Source of the DNA: Pelosinus fermentans JBW45
Lineage (GTDB): Bacteria; Bacillota; Negativicutes; DSM-13327
Length of the DNA stretch: 64,000 nt
Direction of reading: 5' to 3'
NCBI RefSeq assembly: GCF_000271665.2
Contig: NZ_CP010978.1
Location: 776,501-840,500 of the forward strand
The notes under the pieces were generated by a model. It searched no databases and was not told the origin of the DNA. It saw nothing but the letters and a program-made list of their open reading frames with translations. This document shows positions 5,917 through 13,077 of this stretch, one piece after another. The number at the start of each line of letters is the position of its first letter. The stretch's first letter is position 1. A program made the translations under genes and the position numbers.

Positions 5917-6000
5917 TTGAACCACAAAGACGCAATACTGCTATGCAGTACACAAAGGAACGTAAAACCCCTTTGTGACCTTTGCGCCTTTGCGGTTCAA
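5917..6000. repeat. 84-bp inverted-repeat element (MITE-like), AACCACAAAG subtype
   Basis: The ends TTGAACCACAAAGACGCA and TGCGCCTTTGCGGTTCAA are inverted copies that match at 16 of 18 positions. The interior has no reading frame. It belongs with the related elements at 9805-9903 and 10401-10848. Right-end-like pieces also lie at 6015-6046 and 7225-7259. Confidence 0.7.
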
Positions 6001-7224: not shown

Positions 7225-7259
7225 ACCCCCTTTGTGTCCTTTGCGTCTTTGTGGTTCGA
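7225..7259. repeat. Solo right end of an AACCACAAAG-type element
   Basis: CCCCCTTTGTGTCC followed by TTTGCGTCTTTGTGGTTCGA matches the right end of the 84-bp element at 5917. No left end is visible nearby. A fragment of the CTCTGTGTCTCT type lies just upstream at about 7190-7202. Confidence 0.55.
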
Positions 7260-7356: not shown

Positions 7357-8775
7357 ATGCAAATAAAGAAATTTATGGTTTGTGCATCCGTGCTAATGTT
7401 AGTTTCGAGTGCTTCTATGGCAGGACAAGCTGCTGATAAAGAAAATAATGAAATAGCTAAATCGAAGACAGATTCTCAAGAAAATATTGCAGCGAAAGAG
7501 GAGAAGAAAGCTCCGATTGTAATTGAAGCTGAGAAGTTGTCATTCAGTGAAGAAACAGGTGATGTATTTGCTGAAGGCAATGTAGTAGTCAAACAAAATA
7601 CAGACGTTATTTCCACAGATTTCATGCGTGGTAATAATAAAACAACTGAAGTATGGATTGACGGCAAAGCAACCTTGCAGCAGCCTGGTACAGAGCTGGT
7701 CGGCACAGGTACCCATTACAATTATACTACTCGTATAGGAAATATGAATAATGTAAAAGGTCTAGTAGGTAAGGAACATATTTCGAGTAATAACCTAGAA
7801 TTTTACCCTGAAAAATATATTGCCCATGATTCCACAGCAACGAAATGTCCAGCCATTGTGCCTGATTATCATATGAGTGCAGATCGAATCGAAATCTGGC
7901 CTGGGGAAAAAATGGTTGCATATAATGCTAAATTTTGGATTAAGAATGTGGTTATTTACTCTATGCCAAAATACCAGACCTCTTTGAAGAAGGGGGAATC
8001 CAAAAGTGCCTTTCCAAGTATTGGTTACCATTCTGGAGACGGTTTAACGATTTCACAGCATTTAGAATATCCAATTGAGGACAGACTATCAGCTTTTGCT
8101 GACCTAGATTATTATTCTCAGCATGGCCTTAAACCTTCTTTTGGTTTAACTAGTAAACAAAAAGGTTACAGTCTAAAATTGTACCAAAGCAATGAAGAGA
8201 ATGGTGATGATGAATGGATTAAGAAAGAAGCTGAGCTTCTCTTTACGCTAGATCCAATAAAAATGGGTAAGGTGACTGGCTACTTTACCGCTAGCAATGG
8301 CAAGTGGAAAGAGGGAAATATCTCCGGCTGGCGGCAGGATTATAATTTGTATTTTAAGCGTAATACGATCCAGCTAAGCAAAAAGCTTACCTTAGATGTA
8401 GGGGCAGGTTATGAGAGAAGATATTACGGCTATGATAATTCCTCCAATAATATATGGAGATTTAATACGAAGCTAACAGCAAGACCAAACGATAGACTGG
8501 AAACCTGGGTAGGATATGCTTACAATGATCAATCAGGTACTTCTGTCTATGAATATGATAAAATTGACAGCGATCGAGAGTTAAAAACTGGGTTTATGTA
8601 TAAAGTCGATAAAATGAATTCTGTGGGTGTCAAAATAGATTATGAAATTGACGCTGGAAAATTAAAAGATTTAGATTATACCTGGCGCCGCAATTTACAT
8701 TGCTGGGAAGCTGATATCACCTATCGTGAGAAACGCAGCCAAGTAAATGTAAAACTATCAACCATTGCATGGTAA
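7357..8775 (+). CDS. OstA/LptD-like LPS transport outer membrane protein
   Basis: This 472-aa protein has a signal peptide (to about residue 25). An OstA/LptA-like beta-jellyroll region follows at about 52-150, with the typical wording IEAEKLSFSEETGDVFAEGN and VVVKQNTDVIS. The remainder is rich in alternating aromatic beta strands like an outer membrane barrel and ends in AW. In Gram-negative cells this architecture belongs to LptD, which inserts LPS into the outer leaflet; at 472 residues it is short for that family. It lies just ahead of the heptose genes, which supports an LPS role. AGGAGAAAG precedes the ATG. Confidence 0.75.
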   Translation: MQIKKFMVCASVLMLVSSASMAGQAADKENNEIAKSKTDSQENIAAKEEKKAPIVIEAEKLSFSEETGDVFAEGNVVVKQNTDVISTDFMRGNNKTTEVWIDGKATLQQPGTELVGTGTHYNYTTRIGNMNNVKGLVGKEHISSNNLEFYPEKYIAHDSTATKCPAIVPDYHMSADRIEIWPGEKMVAYNAKFWIKNVVIYSMPKYQTSLKKGESKSAFPSIGYHSGDGLTISQHLEYPIEDRLSAFADLDYYSQHGLKPSFGLTSKQKGYSLKLYQSNEENGDDEWIKKEAELLFTLDPIKMGKVTGYFTASNGKWKEGNISGWRQDYNLYFKRNTIQLSKKLTLDVGAGYERRYYGYDNSSNNIWRFNTKLTARPNDRLETWVGYAYNDQSGTSVYEYDKIDSDRELKTGFMYKVDKMNSVGVKIDYEIDAGKLKDLDYTWRRNLHCWEADITYREKRSQVNVKLSTIAW

Positions 8776-8798
8776 GGGAATAAAGGGGTTTATTTGTT

Positions 8799-9797
8799 TT
8801 GGAAAAATCATTATTAACCATTATTCAAAGAATAGAACAACGCAATATTATGGTAATTGGCGATATAGTAGCTGATGTATATCTAGAAGGGAAAATATCC
8901 CGTATCTCCCGGGAAGCACCTGTATTGATATTAGAACACTCAGAAGAACGAGTTGTTCCAGGAGGTGCTGCTAATGTTGTACACAATACAGCTACATTAA
9001 GTGGCAACGTATATGCAGTAGGGGTTGTGGGGCAGGATTATGCAGGACAGGAATTAGCCCGGATTCTAGCAACTAAAAATGCTCATACCAACGGCTTGTT
9101 AGTTGACAATGGCAGGCCTACAATTACTAAAACAAGAGTTATGGCGGGCGGACAGGCGACTGTTCGTCAGCAGATTGTACGTATTGATAAGGAAAAGAAA
9201 GAAGCGTTGGGTCATGAAATTGAGCAATCCATCAAGGCGTACATCACGGCTCATATATCGAACATGCATGGCGTAGTGATTAGCGACTATGGCAGTCATA
9301 CCGTCACACCAGATATAATGCGTTATGTTATACAGACTTGTGGAGATAAGAATATTCCTTGTATTGTCGATTCGAGGTATAATATAATGGAATATAGTGG
9401 AATTGAAGTTGTTAAACAAAATGAATCAGAAGCAGCAGCAGCAGTAGGTTATGATATTATAGATCAGGCTACGCTACTGTCGGCTGGTAAGACAATCCTA
9501 GAAAAGCTAGATGCCAAGGCAATTCTAATTAGCCGTGGACCAGACGGTATGACTTTATTTGAAAAAACAGGTACCGTTACGCATATCCCTGTGACCAATA
9601 AAAGTGAAGTATATGATGTCACCGGTGCAGGGGATACAGTCGTAGCAACCATGATCCTGGCCTTAGCAGCAGGGGCATCCTATAAGGATGCAGCCCGCTT
9701 GTCCAATTTTGCAGCAGGCATCGTAGTAAAAAAACCAGGCACAGCAACCACAACCCCAGAAGAACTCCGCCAAGCCATCGGTGAGCATTTCGAGTGA
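8799..9797 (+). CDS. hldA: D-glycero-beta-D-manno-heptose-7-phosphate kinase (HldE N-terminal domain type)
   Basis: This 332-aa PfkB-family kinase phosphorylates heptose 7-phosphate at C1 in ADP-heptose synthesis for the LPS inner core. The N-terminal part carries GDIVADVYLEGKISRISREA and PGGAANVVHN, both typical of the RfaE kinase domain. Near the C-terminus the motif VTGAGDTVVA contains the catalytic Asp. It is a stand-alone kinase; the adenylyltransferase is the separate gene at 9931. The start is TTG at 8799 behind AAAGGGG. A 99-bp inverted-repeat element separates it from its partner gene. Confidence 0.9.
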   Translation: MEKSLLTIIQRIEQRNIMVIGDIVADVYLEGKISRISREAPVLILEHSEERVVPGGAANVVHNTATLSGNVYAVGVVGQDYAGQELARILATKNAHTNGLLVDNGRPTITKTRVMAGGQATVRQQIVRIDKEKKEALGHEIEQSIKAYITAHISNMHGVVISDYGSHTVTPDIMRYVIQTCGDKNIPCIVDSRYNIMEYSGIEVVKQNESEAAAAVGYDIIDQATLLSAGKTILEKLDAKAILISRGPDGMTLFEKTGTVTHIPVTNKSEVYDVTGAGDTVVATMILALAAGASYKDAARLSNFAAGIVVKKPGTATTTPEELRQAIGEHFE

Positions 9798-9804
9798 AAA
9801 ATAA

Positions 9805-9903
9805 TTAACCGCAGAGGCGCAGAGGAATTATAACATAAGTATAAAAAAATGATGATGCTTTTATTTATTCCTTCTCTGTGCTCTCTGTGTTCTCTGCGGT
9901 TAA
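9805..9903. repeat. 99-bp inverted-repeat element (MITE-like), AACCGCAGAG subtype
   Basis: The left end TTAACCGCAGAG and the right end CTCTGCGGTTAA are perfect 12-bp inverted copies. Further CAGAG/CTCTG units continue inward. There is no gene inside. It lies between the heptose kinase and adenylyltransferase genes and has the same ends as the gene-bearing element at 10401-10848. Confidence 0.7.
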
Positions 9904-9930
9904 AATTTCTTTAGATAAAGCAGGTGTAAT

Positions 9931-10398
9931 ATGAAAATAGTAGATTCTATTCAAATAAAGAATATAACAGAGCAACTAAAAGCCGATGGTAAAATAATTG
10001 TTTTTACCAACGGCTGTTTTGACATTCTCCATGTGGGACATGTTCGATATCTCAAAGCGGCCAGAGACCTAGGTGACTGTTTAATACTAGGTCTCAACAG
10101 TGACCAATCTGTACGTACCCTCAAAGGTCCAACCCGTCCAATCAATACCCAAGATGACCGAGCCGAAGTTCTATCGGCTCTTTCTGCTGTTGATTACGTA
10201 GTGATCTTTGAAGAGTCTACAGCAGAAAATCTAATTGATCAAATAAGGCCTGCTATCTACGTTAAAGGCGGCGACTATAACATCAAAGACCTCCCCGAAT
10301 CCTCCATCGTCTCCCGCCACGGCGGCCAAACCATCCTCATCCCCGAAGTAATCGGCAAATCATCGAGTAATATAATAAAGAAGATAAAGAAGGATTAA
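9931..10398 (+). CDS. hldC: D-glycero-beta-D-manno-heptose 1-phosphate adenylyltransferase
   Basis: This 155-aa nucleotidyltransferase transfers AMP to heptose 1-phosphate, giving ADP-heptose after dephosphorylation. The motif TNGCFDILHVGHVRYL holds the HxGH nucleotide-binding signature of the cytidylyltransferase-like fold, and SSSNIIKKI near the end corresponds to the second conserved signature. The size matches the separate RfaE2 domain. With the kinase at 8799 it completes the two activities that a bifunctional HldE carries in enterobacteria. GCAGGTG precedes the ATG. Confidence 0.9.
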   Translation: MKIVDSIQIKNITEQLKADGKIIVFTNGCFDILHVGHVRYLKAARDLGDCLILGLNSDQSVRTLKGPTRPINTQDDRAEVLSALSAVDYVVIFEESTAENLIDQIRPAIYVKGGDYNIKDLPESSIVSRHGGQTILIPEVIGKSSSNIIKKIKKD

Positions 10399-10400
10399 CG

Positions 10401-10848
10401 AACCACAGAGGGCGCAGAGGGTGATTTAATGAAAAATACAGATTGTATGGCGGCTTTAACAGATAAAGTTATTGGTGCAGCAATTGAAGTTCATAGAATC
10501 TTAGGACCTGGTTATCTGGAAAGTGTATATGAAGAAGCATTGGTACATGAATTGCAACTAAGAAATATTCCACTAGAACGACAGAAAGTAATTAATATCA
10601 ATTATAAAGATAAGGCAGTCGGTGAGGGACGGATAGATTTATTAGTTGATCAATGCCTTATCATAGAGCTAAAAGCAGTCAATGAACTTGCTGATATACA
10701 TGTGGCTCAAGTGTTGTCATATTTAAAAACTACAGGGTTACAACTGGGATTATTGATTAATTTTAATACAAAATATTTACGTGATGGAATAAAACGCGTA
10801 ATAAAATCAAAATAACCCTCTCTGTGTTCTCTGCGTCTCTGCGGTTAA
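10401..10848. mobile_element. Inverted-repeat element enclosing a GxxExxY gene
   Basis: The left end AACCACAGAGGGCGCAGAGG lies eight bases before the enclosed ATG. The right end begins directly after the stop codon and finishes in CTGCGTCTCTGCGGTTAA. The two ends are inverted relatives of each other and of the 99-bp element at 9805. The element therefore looks like a gene-carrying version of the small elements nearby. Whether it moves is not shown by the sequence. Confidence 0.5.
10429..10815 (+). CDS. GxxExxY family protein
   Basis: This 128-aa protein carries the family signature GPGYLESVYEEALVHEL (about residues 24-40). It also has a GRIDLLVDQCLIIELKAV segment whose D and E-x-K residues fit the PD-(D/E)XK nuclease-like fold suggested for this family. 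The function is not established. It interrupts the LPS heptose cluster and is flanked tightly by inverted CAGAG-type repeats, unlike any of its neighbours. I infer that it arrived with the flanking repeats. It may be the active partner of the repeat family or a passenger. Confidence 0.85.
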   Translation: MKNTDCMAALTDKVIGAAIEVHRILGPGYLESVYEEALVHELQLRNIPLERQKVININYKDKAVGEGRIDLLVDQCLIIELKAVNELADIHVAQVLSYLKTTGLQLGLLINFNTKYLRDGIKRVIKSK

Positions 10849-10872
10849 ATAAATCTTTTTAGAGGTTTTAAT

Positions 10873-11889
10873 ATGTATAAAAACATTCTTATTGTAAAAC
10901 TTAGTGCCATTGGTGATGTGATTCACGCTTTGCCTGTGGCTCATGCTTTGAAGCAGACTTACCCTGATGCTCGTATCACTTGGGTAGTAGAAAAACCTGC
11001 CTATGATCTTTTAACCAACAACCCTGATATAGATGAAATTATCATCTTCGATAAACCTAAATTCAAATCCTTATCAGGTCTACTATCAAATGGCTATACA
11101 TTCTCAAAATTGCTCAAATCCCACAAATTTGACCTAGCCATTGATCTGCAAGGACTATTCAAAAGCGCAGCCATCTCCTATCTCAGTGGTGCACCCAAGC
11201 GCCTAGTGTATTGCAACGCACGAGAGCTAAGTGACAAAATCGGTCAGCGAATTTGTGGAAATCATGAACATGGCCATGTAGTAGACCGATATCTAGATGT
11301 TGCACAGCACCTCGGCTGCAAAATAGATCAAGTCCAATTTCCTATAAACATCACAGAAGTTGAAGTACAAAAAGCAGAGGCGATAGCTAACCATGCAGGA
11401 TTAAGGCTAGAAAATCCCTACGTCGTCCTTGCCCCAGGTACTAACTGGCCTTCTAAATGCTGGCCAACAACTCACTTTGCCAAGTTGGCAGATCAATTCT
11501 ATGACAACAACATGATTCCAGTGATAATCGGCGGACCCAATGATAAACGATTAGCAGAAGAAATAATTGCCAATACGAAAATTCCCCCCATTGACCTTAC
11601 AGGCAAAACCTCTCTTAAACAATTGGCCTATATCATAAAAAAATCACGAACTTTTGTAGGCGGTGATACCGGTCCCATGCATCTGGCAGTGGCGGTAGGC
11701 ACTCAGGTAGTAACTATGTTTGGACCAACTGATCCTAATCGAAATGGACCTTATGGAGAAAATCATAGTATTTTAACCCCTGATGTACCTTGTATTTGCT
11801 GTTGGAAGCGCCAATGTACAAAGAAGCCAATGTGCCTTGAAACATTAAATGCTGATGTGGTGTATCAATCTATTCAAAATAAGAAATGA
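10873..11889 (+). CDS. LPS heptosyltransferase, GT9 family (WaaC/RfaF type)
   Basis: This 338-aa GT9 enzyme would add heptose from ADP-heptose to the LPS inner core. The N-terminus LIVKLSAIGDVIHALPVAHA is typical of heptosyltransferase I/II. The C-terminal domain has the ADP-heptose-binding region GGDTGPMHLAVAVGT followed by MFGPTDPNRNGPYG. The tail has a cysteine pattern (CICCWKRQC, then C) common in Firmicutes and delta-proteobacterial members. It follows the ADP-heptose genes, and the GxxExxY element lies between. The sequence does not decide whether it is heptosyltransferase I or II. Confidence 0.9.
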   Translation: MYKNILIVKLSAIGDVIHALPVAHALKQTYPDARITWVVEKPAYDLLTNNPDIDEIIIFDKPKFKSLSGLLSNGYTFSKLLKSHKFDLAIDLQGLFKSAAISYLSGAPKRLVYCNARELSDKIGQRICGNHEHGHVVDRYLDVAQHLGCKIDQVQFPINITEVEVQKAEAIANHAGLRLENPYVVLAPGTNWPSKCWPTTHFAKLADQFYDNNMIPVIIGGPNDKRLAEEIIANTKIPPIDLTGKTSLKQLAYIIKKSRTFVGGDTGPMHLAVAVGTQVVTMFGPTDPNRNGPYGENHSILTPDVPCICCWKRQCTKKPMCLETLNADVVYQSIQNKK

Positions 11890-11907
11890 AGGTAGGGAGC
11901 TAATAAA

Positions 11908-13077
11908 TTGAATATCTTAATTTTGTTTTCCCAACCATGGCGAGTAGGTGGTGCTGAAACCCATGTGGAAGCTCTTATAAAAGGTTTATCAGATCATAAT
12001 ATCATTCTCGCAGTAAATCGAGGCAGTAATACTGAAAAACTGCAAAGACTCAGGCAAGAGTTTGCGAATGTGGAAATCGTAGAAGTGCAGGCACGGGGAA
12101 TTAATGTCTTCCAGTGGATTATGGATTTATACAAATTGGCTGGTGTTATCAAAAAAAATAAAATTGAAATCATTAGCGCTCAGCAAAGAACCGCTGGAAT
12201 CTGGGCATACTTATTAAATAAATTTACAGATGTTCCTTTTGTCGTGACAATGCATGATCCCTGGCACCGAGCCTTTATAAAGAAAGGCTACGCAAAAATG
12301 TTTTCACAGATGATTGTGGTGAGTAGAAATTTAACAGATATATTAGTTAATAAATTTGGCTTTAAAAGTAGCCAAATTAGCTTCATCAATAATGGCATAG
12401 ATTTTGCAAAATTTGTACCCCAGGACAAAAAAGAAGCCAGAAATAGGCTAGGTATCTCACAAAATAGTAAGATTATTTTACACGTAAGCCGTTTAAGCAG
12501 CATTAAGGGAGCTGTATCCTTGATTTTAGTTGATAGTATGGAACATGTCCTACAGCAAGAGAAGGACGTGAAATTGATTATTATCGGTGAAGGACCATTA
12601 AGAGAAGAACTTAATGAAAAGTCAAGAACATGGAATGAAAATTATAAGAACTTGATTGAAATCAAAGATTTTACAGACGATATTTCTTACTGGTATAGTG
12701 CAGCAGATGTAATAGTAGGTGAGGGACGAGTTGCCATTGAAGCGATTGCCTGTGAAAGGCCTGTAGTGGCGATTCGCAATGGAGAACAGTTTTTTGGGGC
12801 AGTAACGATAGAAAATATTGCAGATGCACTAGAAGTTAATTTTGACGGAAAGCAGCTTTCTGCTACCCCGGAGGCATTAGCGATAGAAATTGTAAAGACA
12901 TTTAAGATTGCTCTTGAGCAAAGAATAGAAATAGCTAAATATATCAGCACGAAGCTCAGCATCAAAGAAATGTCTGGAAAGTACGATAATGTATTCAAGG
13001 ATGTAATTGCAAGTCATTTGACAACTAATATCGTAGAGGGTACAAGTAATCAAGAATCTAGTAAAAATTCAAATTGA
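11908..13077 (+). CDS. Glycosyltransferase family 4
   Basis: This 389-aa protein has a GT4 (GT-B fold) layout. The N-terminal domain opens with LFSQPWRVGGAETHVEALIKGL, split here as a glycine-rich GGAE acceptor loop. The C-terminal nucleotide-sugar domain includes ILHVSRLSSIKG and VGEGRVAIEAIACERPVVA, the E-x7-E region. It would transfer a sugar in LPS core or O-chain assembly; donor and acceptor are unknown. TTG at 11908 is the start, behind GGTAGGGAG. It is co-directional with the heptosyltransferase and the next two genes. Confidence 0.85.
   Translation: MNILILFSQPWRVGGAETHVEALIKGLSDHNIILAVNRGSNTEKLQRLRQEFANVEIVEVQARGINVFQWIMDLYKLAGVIKKNKIEIISAQQRTAGIWAYLLNKFTDVPFVVTMHDPWHRAFIKKGYAKMFSQMIVVSRNLTDILVNKFGFKSSQISFINNGIDFAKFVPQDKKEARNRLGISQNSKIILHVSRLSSIKGAVSLILVDSMEHVLQQEKDVKLIIIGEGPLREELNEKSRTWNENYKNLIEIKDFTDDISYWYSAADVIVGEGRVAIEAIACERPVVAIRNGEQFFGAVTIENIADALEVNFDGKQLSATPEALAIEIVKTFKIALEQRIEIAKYISTKLSIKEMSGKYDNVFKDVIASHLTTNIVEGTSNQESSKNSN

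Follow-up and report, generated by a model that had tools for sequence, protein, structure and literature searches.

Genes for a predicted PD-(D/E)XK nuclease of the GxxExxY family share inverted ends with short intergenic palindromes in Pelosinus fermentans and other prokaryotes

Intergenic repeats that form palindromes and have no known mover are common. Among the described systems, REPINs are inverted pairs of REP sequences; passages of PMC3116915 propose that they spread via a Y1 transposase (RAYT) flanked by the same repeats. According to part of PMC4990558, the intervening sequence (IVS) of Coxiella is a comparable small selfish element with an ORF, excised from RNA by RNase III. For the element ends reported here, no description was found in the open-access literature; subscription papers and preprints lie mostly outside that scope, and the ends may be noted there. 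No assigned function for the widespread GxxExxY family was found in the open-access literature, and in the available portion of a review of prokaryotic MITEs (PMC10969869) no word begins with "nuclease" or "GxxExxY".

The window, i.e., the whole stretch of 64,000 nucleotides analyzed (Pelosinus fermentans JBW45, NZ_CP010978.1, 776,501 to 840,500), contains a GxxExxY gene within the same inverted ends as a gene-less element, as an earlier note had claimed (Table 1). The ends of the gene-bearing element are tandem 7-mer units (CRCAGAG, tip AACC) inverted to each other, and the gene is the sole ORF between them. The limits given in that note (9805-9903 and 10401-10848) were correct at 10401; the other three lay two bases too far out. 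The last left unit is 9 bases from the ATG, and the first right unit 4 bases from the stop codon, instead of eight and zero. PfkB-type kinase, cytidylyltransferase-like and heptosyltransferase ORFs surround both CAGAG elements, and by name fit hldE domains and waaF. All are uninterrupted; the elements had been said to break up an LPS heptose operon, which is correct as to insertion between its genes but not as to interruption of any gene. The genes on either side of the window's elements share a strand. Inspection by eye revealed no evident target duplication around the elements of this genome. A profile search of the 5.38-Mb genome revealed one GxxExxY match.

Table 1. Positions and composition of the palindromic elements in the window.
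Feature	Position	Strand	Description
Gene-bearing palindromic element	10401..10846	.	AACC...GGTT tips, 446 bp, CAGAG-type units
Left end	10401..10419	+	AACC tip and two units (CACAGAG, CGCAGAG)
GxxExxY ORF	10429..10815	+	128 aa, PD-(D/E)XK nuclease-like; E31, D70, E80xK82, Q94xxxY98
Right end	10820..10846	-	units CACAGAG, CGCAGAG, CGCAGAG (minus-strand reading) and AACC tip
Gene-less palindromic element, CAGAG type	9807..9901	.	95 bp, ends as in 10401-10846
Gene-less palindromic element, CAAAG type	5920..5997	.	78 bp, internal hairpin; most of element folded
Half element	7230..7253	-	three CAAAG-type units; corresponding gap in congener G002 also with such units

The layout resembles that of REPIN-RAYT systems in that dispersed intergenic hairpins of inverted repeats occur with a gene for a trans-acting enzyme flanked by the same repeats. 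However, GxxExxY is a predicted PD-(D/E)XK protein rather than an HuH/Y1 enzyme, its repeats are arrays of 7-mer units, and each genome holds 1 to 17 GxxExxY matches (49 genomes). Because the layout is the same and the enzyme unrelated, the GxxExxY system can be said to work like REPIN-RAYT without being a member of it. As with MITEs and autonomous insertion sequences, gene-less and gene-bearing versions have common inverted ends. In contrast to those, GxxExxY shows no DDE or HuH transposase by family matches and no target duplication evident by eye, its ends are tandem unit arrays, and end types turn over at shared sites. The proposed relation of MITEs to an autonomous element applies to the shared ends of the gene-less and gene-bearing forms; a role of GxxExxY as autonomous transposase is putative, and the term MITE serves as an analogy. 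The 23S rRNA intervening sequence likewise has a small gene tightly bounded by inverted ends, but encodes a different protein and has a different unit, whereas the GxxExxY element lies between protein genes and not in rRNA. One gene of that kind (23S_rRNA_IVP, four-helix S23, PF05635) was observed at L173:6303-6677, with matched inverted ends made of another tandem unit (AGCTCA.AG type).

Gene-less elements are dispersed in the chromosome. In the gene-less CAGAG element of Table 1, the inverted arms 9805-9816 and 9892-9903 (12 nt) are 100% complementary. Two elements of this genome were folded as single strands: 9800-9908 gave z -6.25, and the second z -5.36. Pattern AACCRCAGAGN{0,10}CAGAG had 148 matches in the genome (66 on the plus strand, 82 on the minus strand), and the wider pattern AACCRCVRAGN{1,2}CRCVRAG had 266; the reversed-pattern control had 0 in both cases. 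These matches count ends rather than elements, because a single element can yield two. The elements listed from this genome are 39-153 bp long and gene-less, except for the one bearing GxxExxY. When restricted to the window, a 12-mer test exceeded chance only mildly, with 7 matches against a mean of 3.54 in shuffles, of which 4 in 100 reached 7. Chance origin of the ends was ruled out by the reversed-pattern control of 0, and shuffled sequence of this genome gave 0 clusters. Rfam families had no match over 8000-12500 at E ≤ 1. Many CAAAG-type elements (5920-5997 and others) contain one more hairpin within the element (AATGCCGC...GCGGCA type), which was not noticed in the CAGAG type.

The ORF matched TIGR04256 (GxxExxY) with 149 bits (cut-off 35) and PF13366 (PDDEXK_3) with 146.5 bits (cut-off 22). 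The latter was its sole Pfam match at E ≤ 0.001; PF05635 and Y1 transposase were not matched at this threshold. Across 73 GxxExxY sequences, E31, D70, E80, K82 and Y98 never varied and Q94 was nearly invariant. D, ExK and QxxxY form the residue pattern of RecB-like nucleases; the conserved residues match it and fit a PD-(D/E)XK nuclease. The D and E-x-K residues had already been pointed out as nuclease-like, which these invariant positions and a Cas4-like model favor. The structure model (pLDDT 95.4) aligned best with the Cas4 chain SSO0001 (4ic1; Z 10.1, rmsd 3.4, 100 residues), other listed rows having Z < 8. The top Foldseek rows were LHK-Exo, SSO0001 and lambda exonuclease (best E 1.3e-3). 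GxxExxY is most likely a small PD-(D/E)XK nuclease of the Cas4/RecB/lambda-exonuclease type, as predicted from residues and model; a fold in common with Cas4 in itself shows no function. It resembles Cas4, RecB, AddAB, MGME1 and lambda exonuclease in predicted fold and in the conserved D, ExK and QxxxY, and differs from them in being stand-alone, ~120 residues long and without a conserved cysteine. Canonical Cas4 has a four-cysteine iron-sulphur cluster. None of the columns that are invariant or nearly so in the 73 sequences is a cysteine; thus, GxxExxY is not a canonical Cas4. A search by sequence revealed no solved structure at E ≤ 1. Defence and phage families were rejected, their matches being weak (PADLOC, E 0.012 and 0.027, the second being Cas4b; PHROGs, E 0.014 and 0.022).

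Flanks were analyzed for the best 80 of at least 571 GxxExxY relatives, picked by similarity from named genomes. These 80 loci represent 19 NCBI-named phyla, two of which are archaeal; for 4 loci no phylum name is given. Because many come from metagenome bins with short contigs, single taxon assignments may be wrong. In general, an element end contains roughly two to four units of 7 bases, CRCNRAG (CRCRGAT in some lineages), running inward from the tip. Inward unit arrays were present on both sides of the gene in 50/80 loci vs. 4/676 other ORFs (these four from two loci), and on at least one side in 76/80 vs. 32/676. Outward-oriented units were found on at least one side in 13/80 loci and on both sides in 1/80. 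In a motif-free test, each left flank was compared by alignment with the reverse-complemented right flank, other ORFs from the same loci serving as controls. The inverted-repeat score reached at least 14 in 57/79 loci (one of the 80 had too little flank), compared with 10/708 other ORFs and 0.25% of shuffles. Left and right unit types agreed in 46/50 loci (shuffled mean 14.2). The earlier note had suggested looking for CAGAG-type flanks of GxxExxY genes across phyla and for equally common flanks at unrelated genes; both methods clearly favored inverted flanks at GxxExxY genes over unrelated genes.

Similar results were obtained outside this set. Among loci picked by profile score (15 of 30 used; 5 were not located and 10 were already among the 80), 13/15 had units on at least one side and 11/15 on both. 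From six genomes, 40 stretches were taken, of which 33 were located and 7 were not; 6 belong to the 80, and 6 others overlap the profile-score set. With the close unit motif, these copies had units on at least one side in 20/33 cases and on both in 13/33. With a wider motif, which takes in GAT but not GAA unit endings, the counts were 24/33 and 20/33 (controls, 44 and 5 of 676), and 18/27 and 14/27 when copies among the 80 were excluded. Several copies failing the close motif had inverted CRCRGAT or CRCNRAA units by eye. In Bacillota, the phylum of the window, the wider motif was found on at least one side in 8/17 loci and on both sides in 7/17, including the locus of the window; recognizable units were absent in the other 9/17. 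This weaker association implies that in distant lineages of GxxExxY the ends may be different or absent. L066, L072, L078-L087 and L090 do not figure in every flank count, being short, broken, weak or left aside.

End type clustered on the GxxExxY tree (30 changes vs. a shuffled mean of 42.7; 0/200 shuffles as low), although the tree is poorly resolved (56/93 inner branches open) and end type switches often; L122 was left out because of its frame, and the end type of L036 was set by eye. One clade of 13 loci, including L126, L135, L141, L151, L156 and L174, carried the CAGAG label in 13/13. Its taxa are Pseudomonadota, Planctomycetota, Acidobacteriota, Spirochaetota and an archaeal bin, and several of its tips are AGCC rather than AACC.

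We also compared end patterns at the genome level. Of 398 genomes in the window's phylum, 21 had GxxExxY over the cut-off; four or more end patterns were present in 8/21 of these vs. 4/377 of those without it (p 6e-9; p 8e-8 with the JBW45 genome removed). The latter four were G173 (37 patterns), G096 (10), G339 (7) and G320 (4); 13/21 gene-carrying genomes had fewer than four. In 49 genomes picked for holding the gene, there were 179 GxxExxY matches; 44 genomes had at least one end pattern and 39 at least four (median 31, total 2641), the gene's own ends being included in these counts. Across the 49, GxxExxY copy number showed no correlation with the number of end patterns (Spearman 0.21, p 0.14). 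From the unit type of the gene ends, the palindrome type of the genome could be predicted in the case of CAAAG (p 0.0013) and of CCAAG (p 4e-5); for CAGAG it could not (p 0.64). The patterns used here differ slightly in tip (ACC for CAGAG, AACC for the others). The dominant palindrome type agreed with the gene-end type in 20/36 genomes (permutation p 0.0065; 13/49 genomes omitted for other types or fewer than four patterns; end type of L163 by eye). This test is blurred because the same genomes hold further GxxExxY copies, some with other end types. G482, the 2.1-Mb Kiritimatiellales bin that contains L179, had 17 GxxExxY matches; among 8 fetched copies, no pair aligned by blastn beyond 150 nt.

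These associations support the view that the GxxExxY gene is inherited together with its two ends as a single element and that the short palindromes are its gene-less relatives. The pairing of gene and ends in many bacterial and some archaeal groups points to a little-studied kind of selfish DNA. The GxxExxY-palindrome link provides a candidate enzyme and ready substrates for selfish DNA of many bacterial phyla and two archaeal bins, whose mobility thereby comes within reach of direct tests.

Relatives carry different alleles at the same site. We compared the boundary after the cytidylyltransferase gene and classed the alleles by eye; G004 had no neighbor-gene match. GxxExxY is enclosed by CAGAG ends in JBW45 and G005, by CACAAAG ends in G006, and by CGCGAAG ends in G002. 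The site is empty in G003 and G001 (same genus) and in G008 (same family), and holds a gene-less CAGAG palindrome in G007; an empty site in relatives, which the earlier note had suggested looking for, was thus found together with a gene-less version. In G009 (same family), a 5′-truncated gene has CACAAAG-like units on one side. Cytidylyltransferases of G002, G005, G006 and G007 are 89-92% identical to that of JBW45, whereas identity of GxxExxY is 81/127 (G002), 85/127 (G006) and 114/128 (G005). A similar picture is given by two contigs of one Chloroflexi bin, which may be mixed strains: their flanks are 94 and 97% identical and the gene-bearing middle 69%. Among the copies located in six genomes, one same-site pair had a diverged gene, and near-identical gene-bearing copies at different sites were absent. 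Given this absence, the lack of target duplication visible by eye, and the existence of genomes that have at least four patterns without the gene over the cut-off (4/377), the role of an autonomous transposase is putative. In Sporomusa genome G435, two equal-score GxxExxY matches lie 701,564 bases apart with neighboring end patterns at the same offset; we take this pair for a large repeat or an assembly duplication.

Turnover was examined by comparing 500-840 kb of the JBW45 genome with the matching stretch of G002; 129 of 185 gaps were comparable. Long matches were 92-95% identical at 704-771 kb and more diverged beyond. Palindromes occupied 31 gaps in both genomes, 5 in JBW45 only, 7 in G002 only, and 86 in neither. 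Within residual gap-length strata, 11.1 co-occupied gaps were expected (maximum of 5000 permutations, 19), and co-occupancy might come in part from a limited set of tolerant gaps. The dominant unit type differed in 20/31 shared gaps. Unit totals were 97 CAGAG, 69 CAAAG and 12 CGAAG in JBW45, and 35, 55 and 87, respectively, in G002. A change from CAGAG to CGAAG requires two changes in every unit, which point mutation cannot readily bring about; we therefore infer that old sites were re-inserted into or converted. As judged from these two genomes, palindromes seem to be replaced where they already stand as much as they jump to new sites. If near relatives do switch repeat type at sites that they share, this would be concerted evolution of an unusual form.

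We propose, with a probability of roughly 55%, a mobile palindrome system in which the candidate nuclease cuts folded units and elements take over older palindrome sites. GxxExxY would recognize the unit array in its folded state (hairpin or cruciform) and cut it, and the break would be repaired by copying in another element. In this way elements would reach further intergenic sites, but their main effect would be the replacement of older palindromes at occupied ones. Our confidence that the gene and its ends form a unit is much higher than that in the full chain. More tentatively, and with the odds against it, the process may amount to palindrome homing: the predicted Cas4-like nuclease would attack other unit types and convert their sites to its own, such that whole genomes switch type in place. 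JBW45 (CAGAG and CAAAG commonest) and G002 (CGAAG commonest) would then be two outcomes of takeover, and the CRCNRAG/CRCRGAT variety across phyla would reflect an arms race between element types.

An alternative that we regard as improbable is that a few tolerant gaps are hit repeatedly and independently by different types, with no replacement, and that GxxExxY is an ordinary transposase. Occupancy in either genome was limited to 43/129 compared gaps, and at some sites units of two types lie adjacent, as this alternative would have it. A mild bias by gap orientation is also possible (occupied gaps in JBW45: tandem 36/143, convergent 3/17, divergent 2/19; 41/179 in all). However, the excess of co-occupied gaps persisted within residual-length strata, and 44 gaps of at least 120 nt were empty in both genomes; both observations speak against this alternative.

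Less probable still, the palindromes may be REP-like sequences moved by a RAYT or other transposase, with GxxExxY caught between two of them as cargo. RAYTs are the movers proposed for REPINs in the cited part of PMC3116915, the JBW45 genome has 10 Y1_Tnp (PF01797) matches, and palindrome patterns also occur in genomes that lack a GxxExxY match. However, with 1.5 kb of flank on either side, 8/10 of these Y1_Tnp loci lack any unit pair of the CAGAG/CAAAG kind, and several show GGGAC-type repeats instead (by eye). At one other locus (L093), the sole pair is CTTTG/CTTCG and lies well away from the gene. The tenth (L100, 699186-699399 of the JBW45 genome) is a RAYT fragment abutted by a CAGAG palindrome, with the N-terminal part seemingly missing. 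Moreover, a passenger would hardly be expected as the enclosed gene at the frequency observed in the 80 loci relative to other ORFs.

Least probable is an element acting at the RNA level, whose hairpins would be tolerated as RNase III trims transcripts and whose protein would be dispensable, spread being by recombination alone: the PF05635 gene of L173 with its matched ends, the RNase III-excised Coxiella element described in part of PMC4990558, and the location of the window elements between genes of one strand are in keeping with it, but the five residues invariant in 73 sequences argue for selected catalysis, and occupied gaps are no more than expected tandem (36/41, yet 143/179 of all gaps), indicating no special tie to transcripts.

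RAYT was rejected as a flank partner, since the Y1_Tnp genes of JBW45 are not enclosed by ends of the kind found around GxxExxY. In the flank test across phyla, the top-scoring control ORF was an IS200-like Y1_Tnp gene (L117:12489-12941) with inverted flanks of 45 nt. The Y1_Tnp/RAYT genes near GGGAC-type repeats (L092, L094-L098) perhaps represent a separate REPIN-like set in the JBW45 genome.
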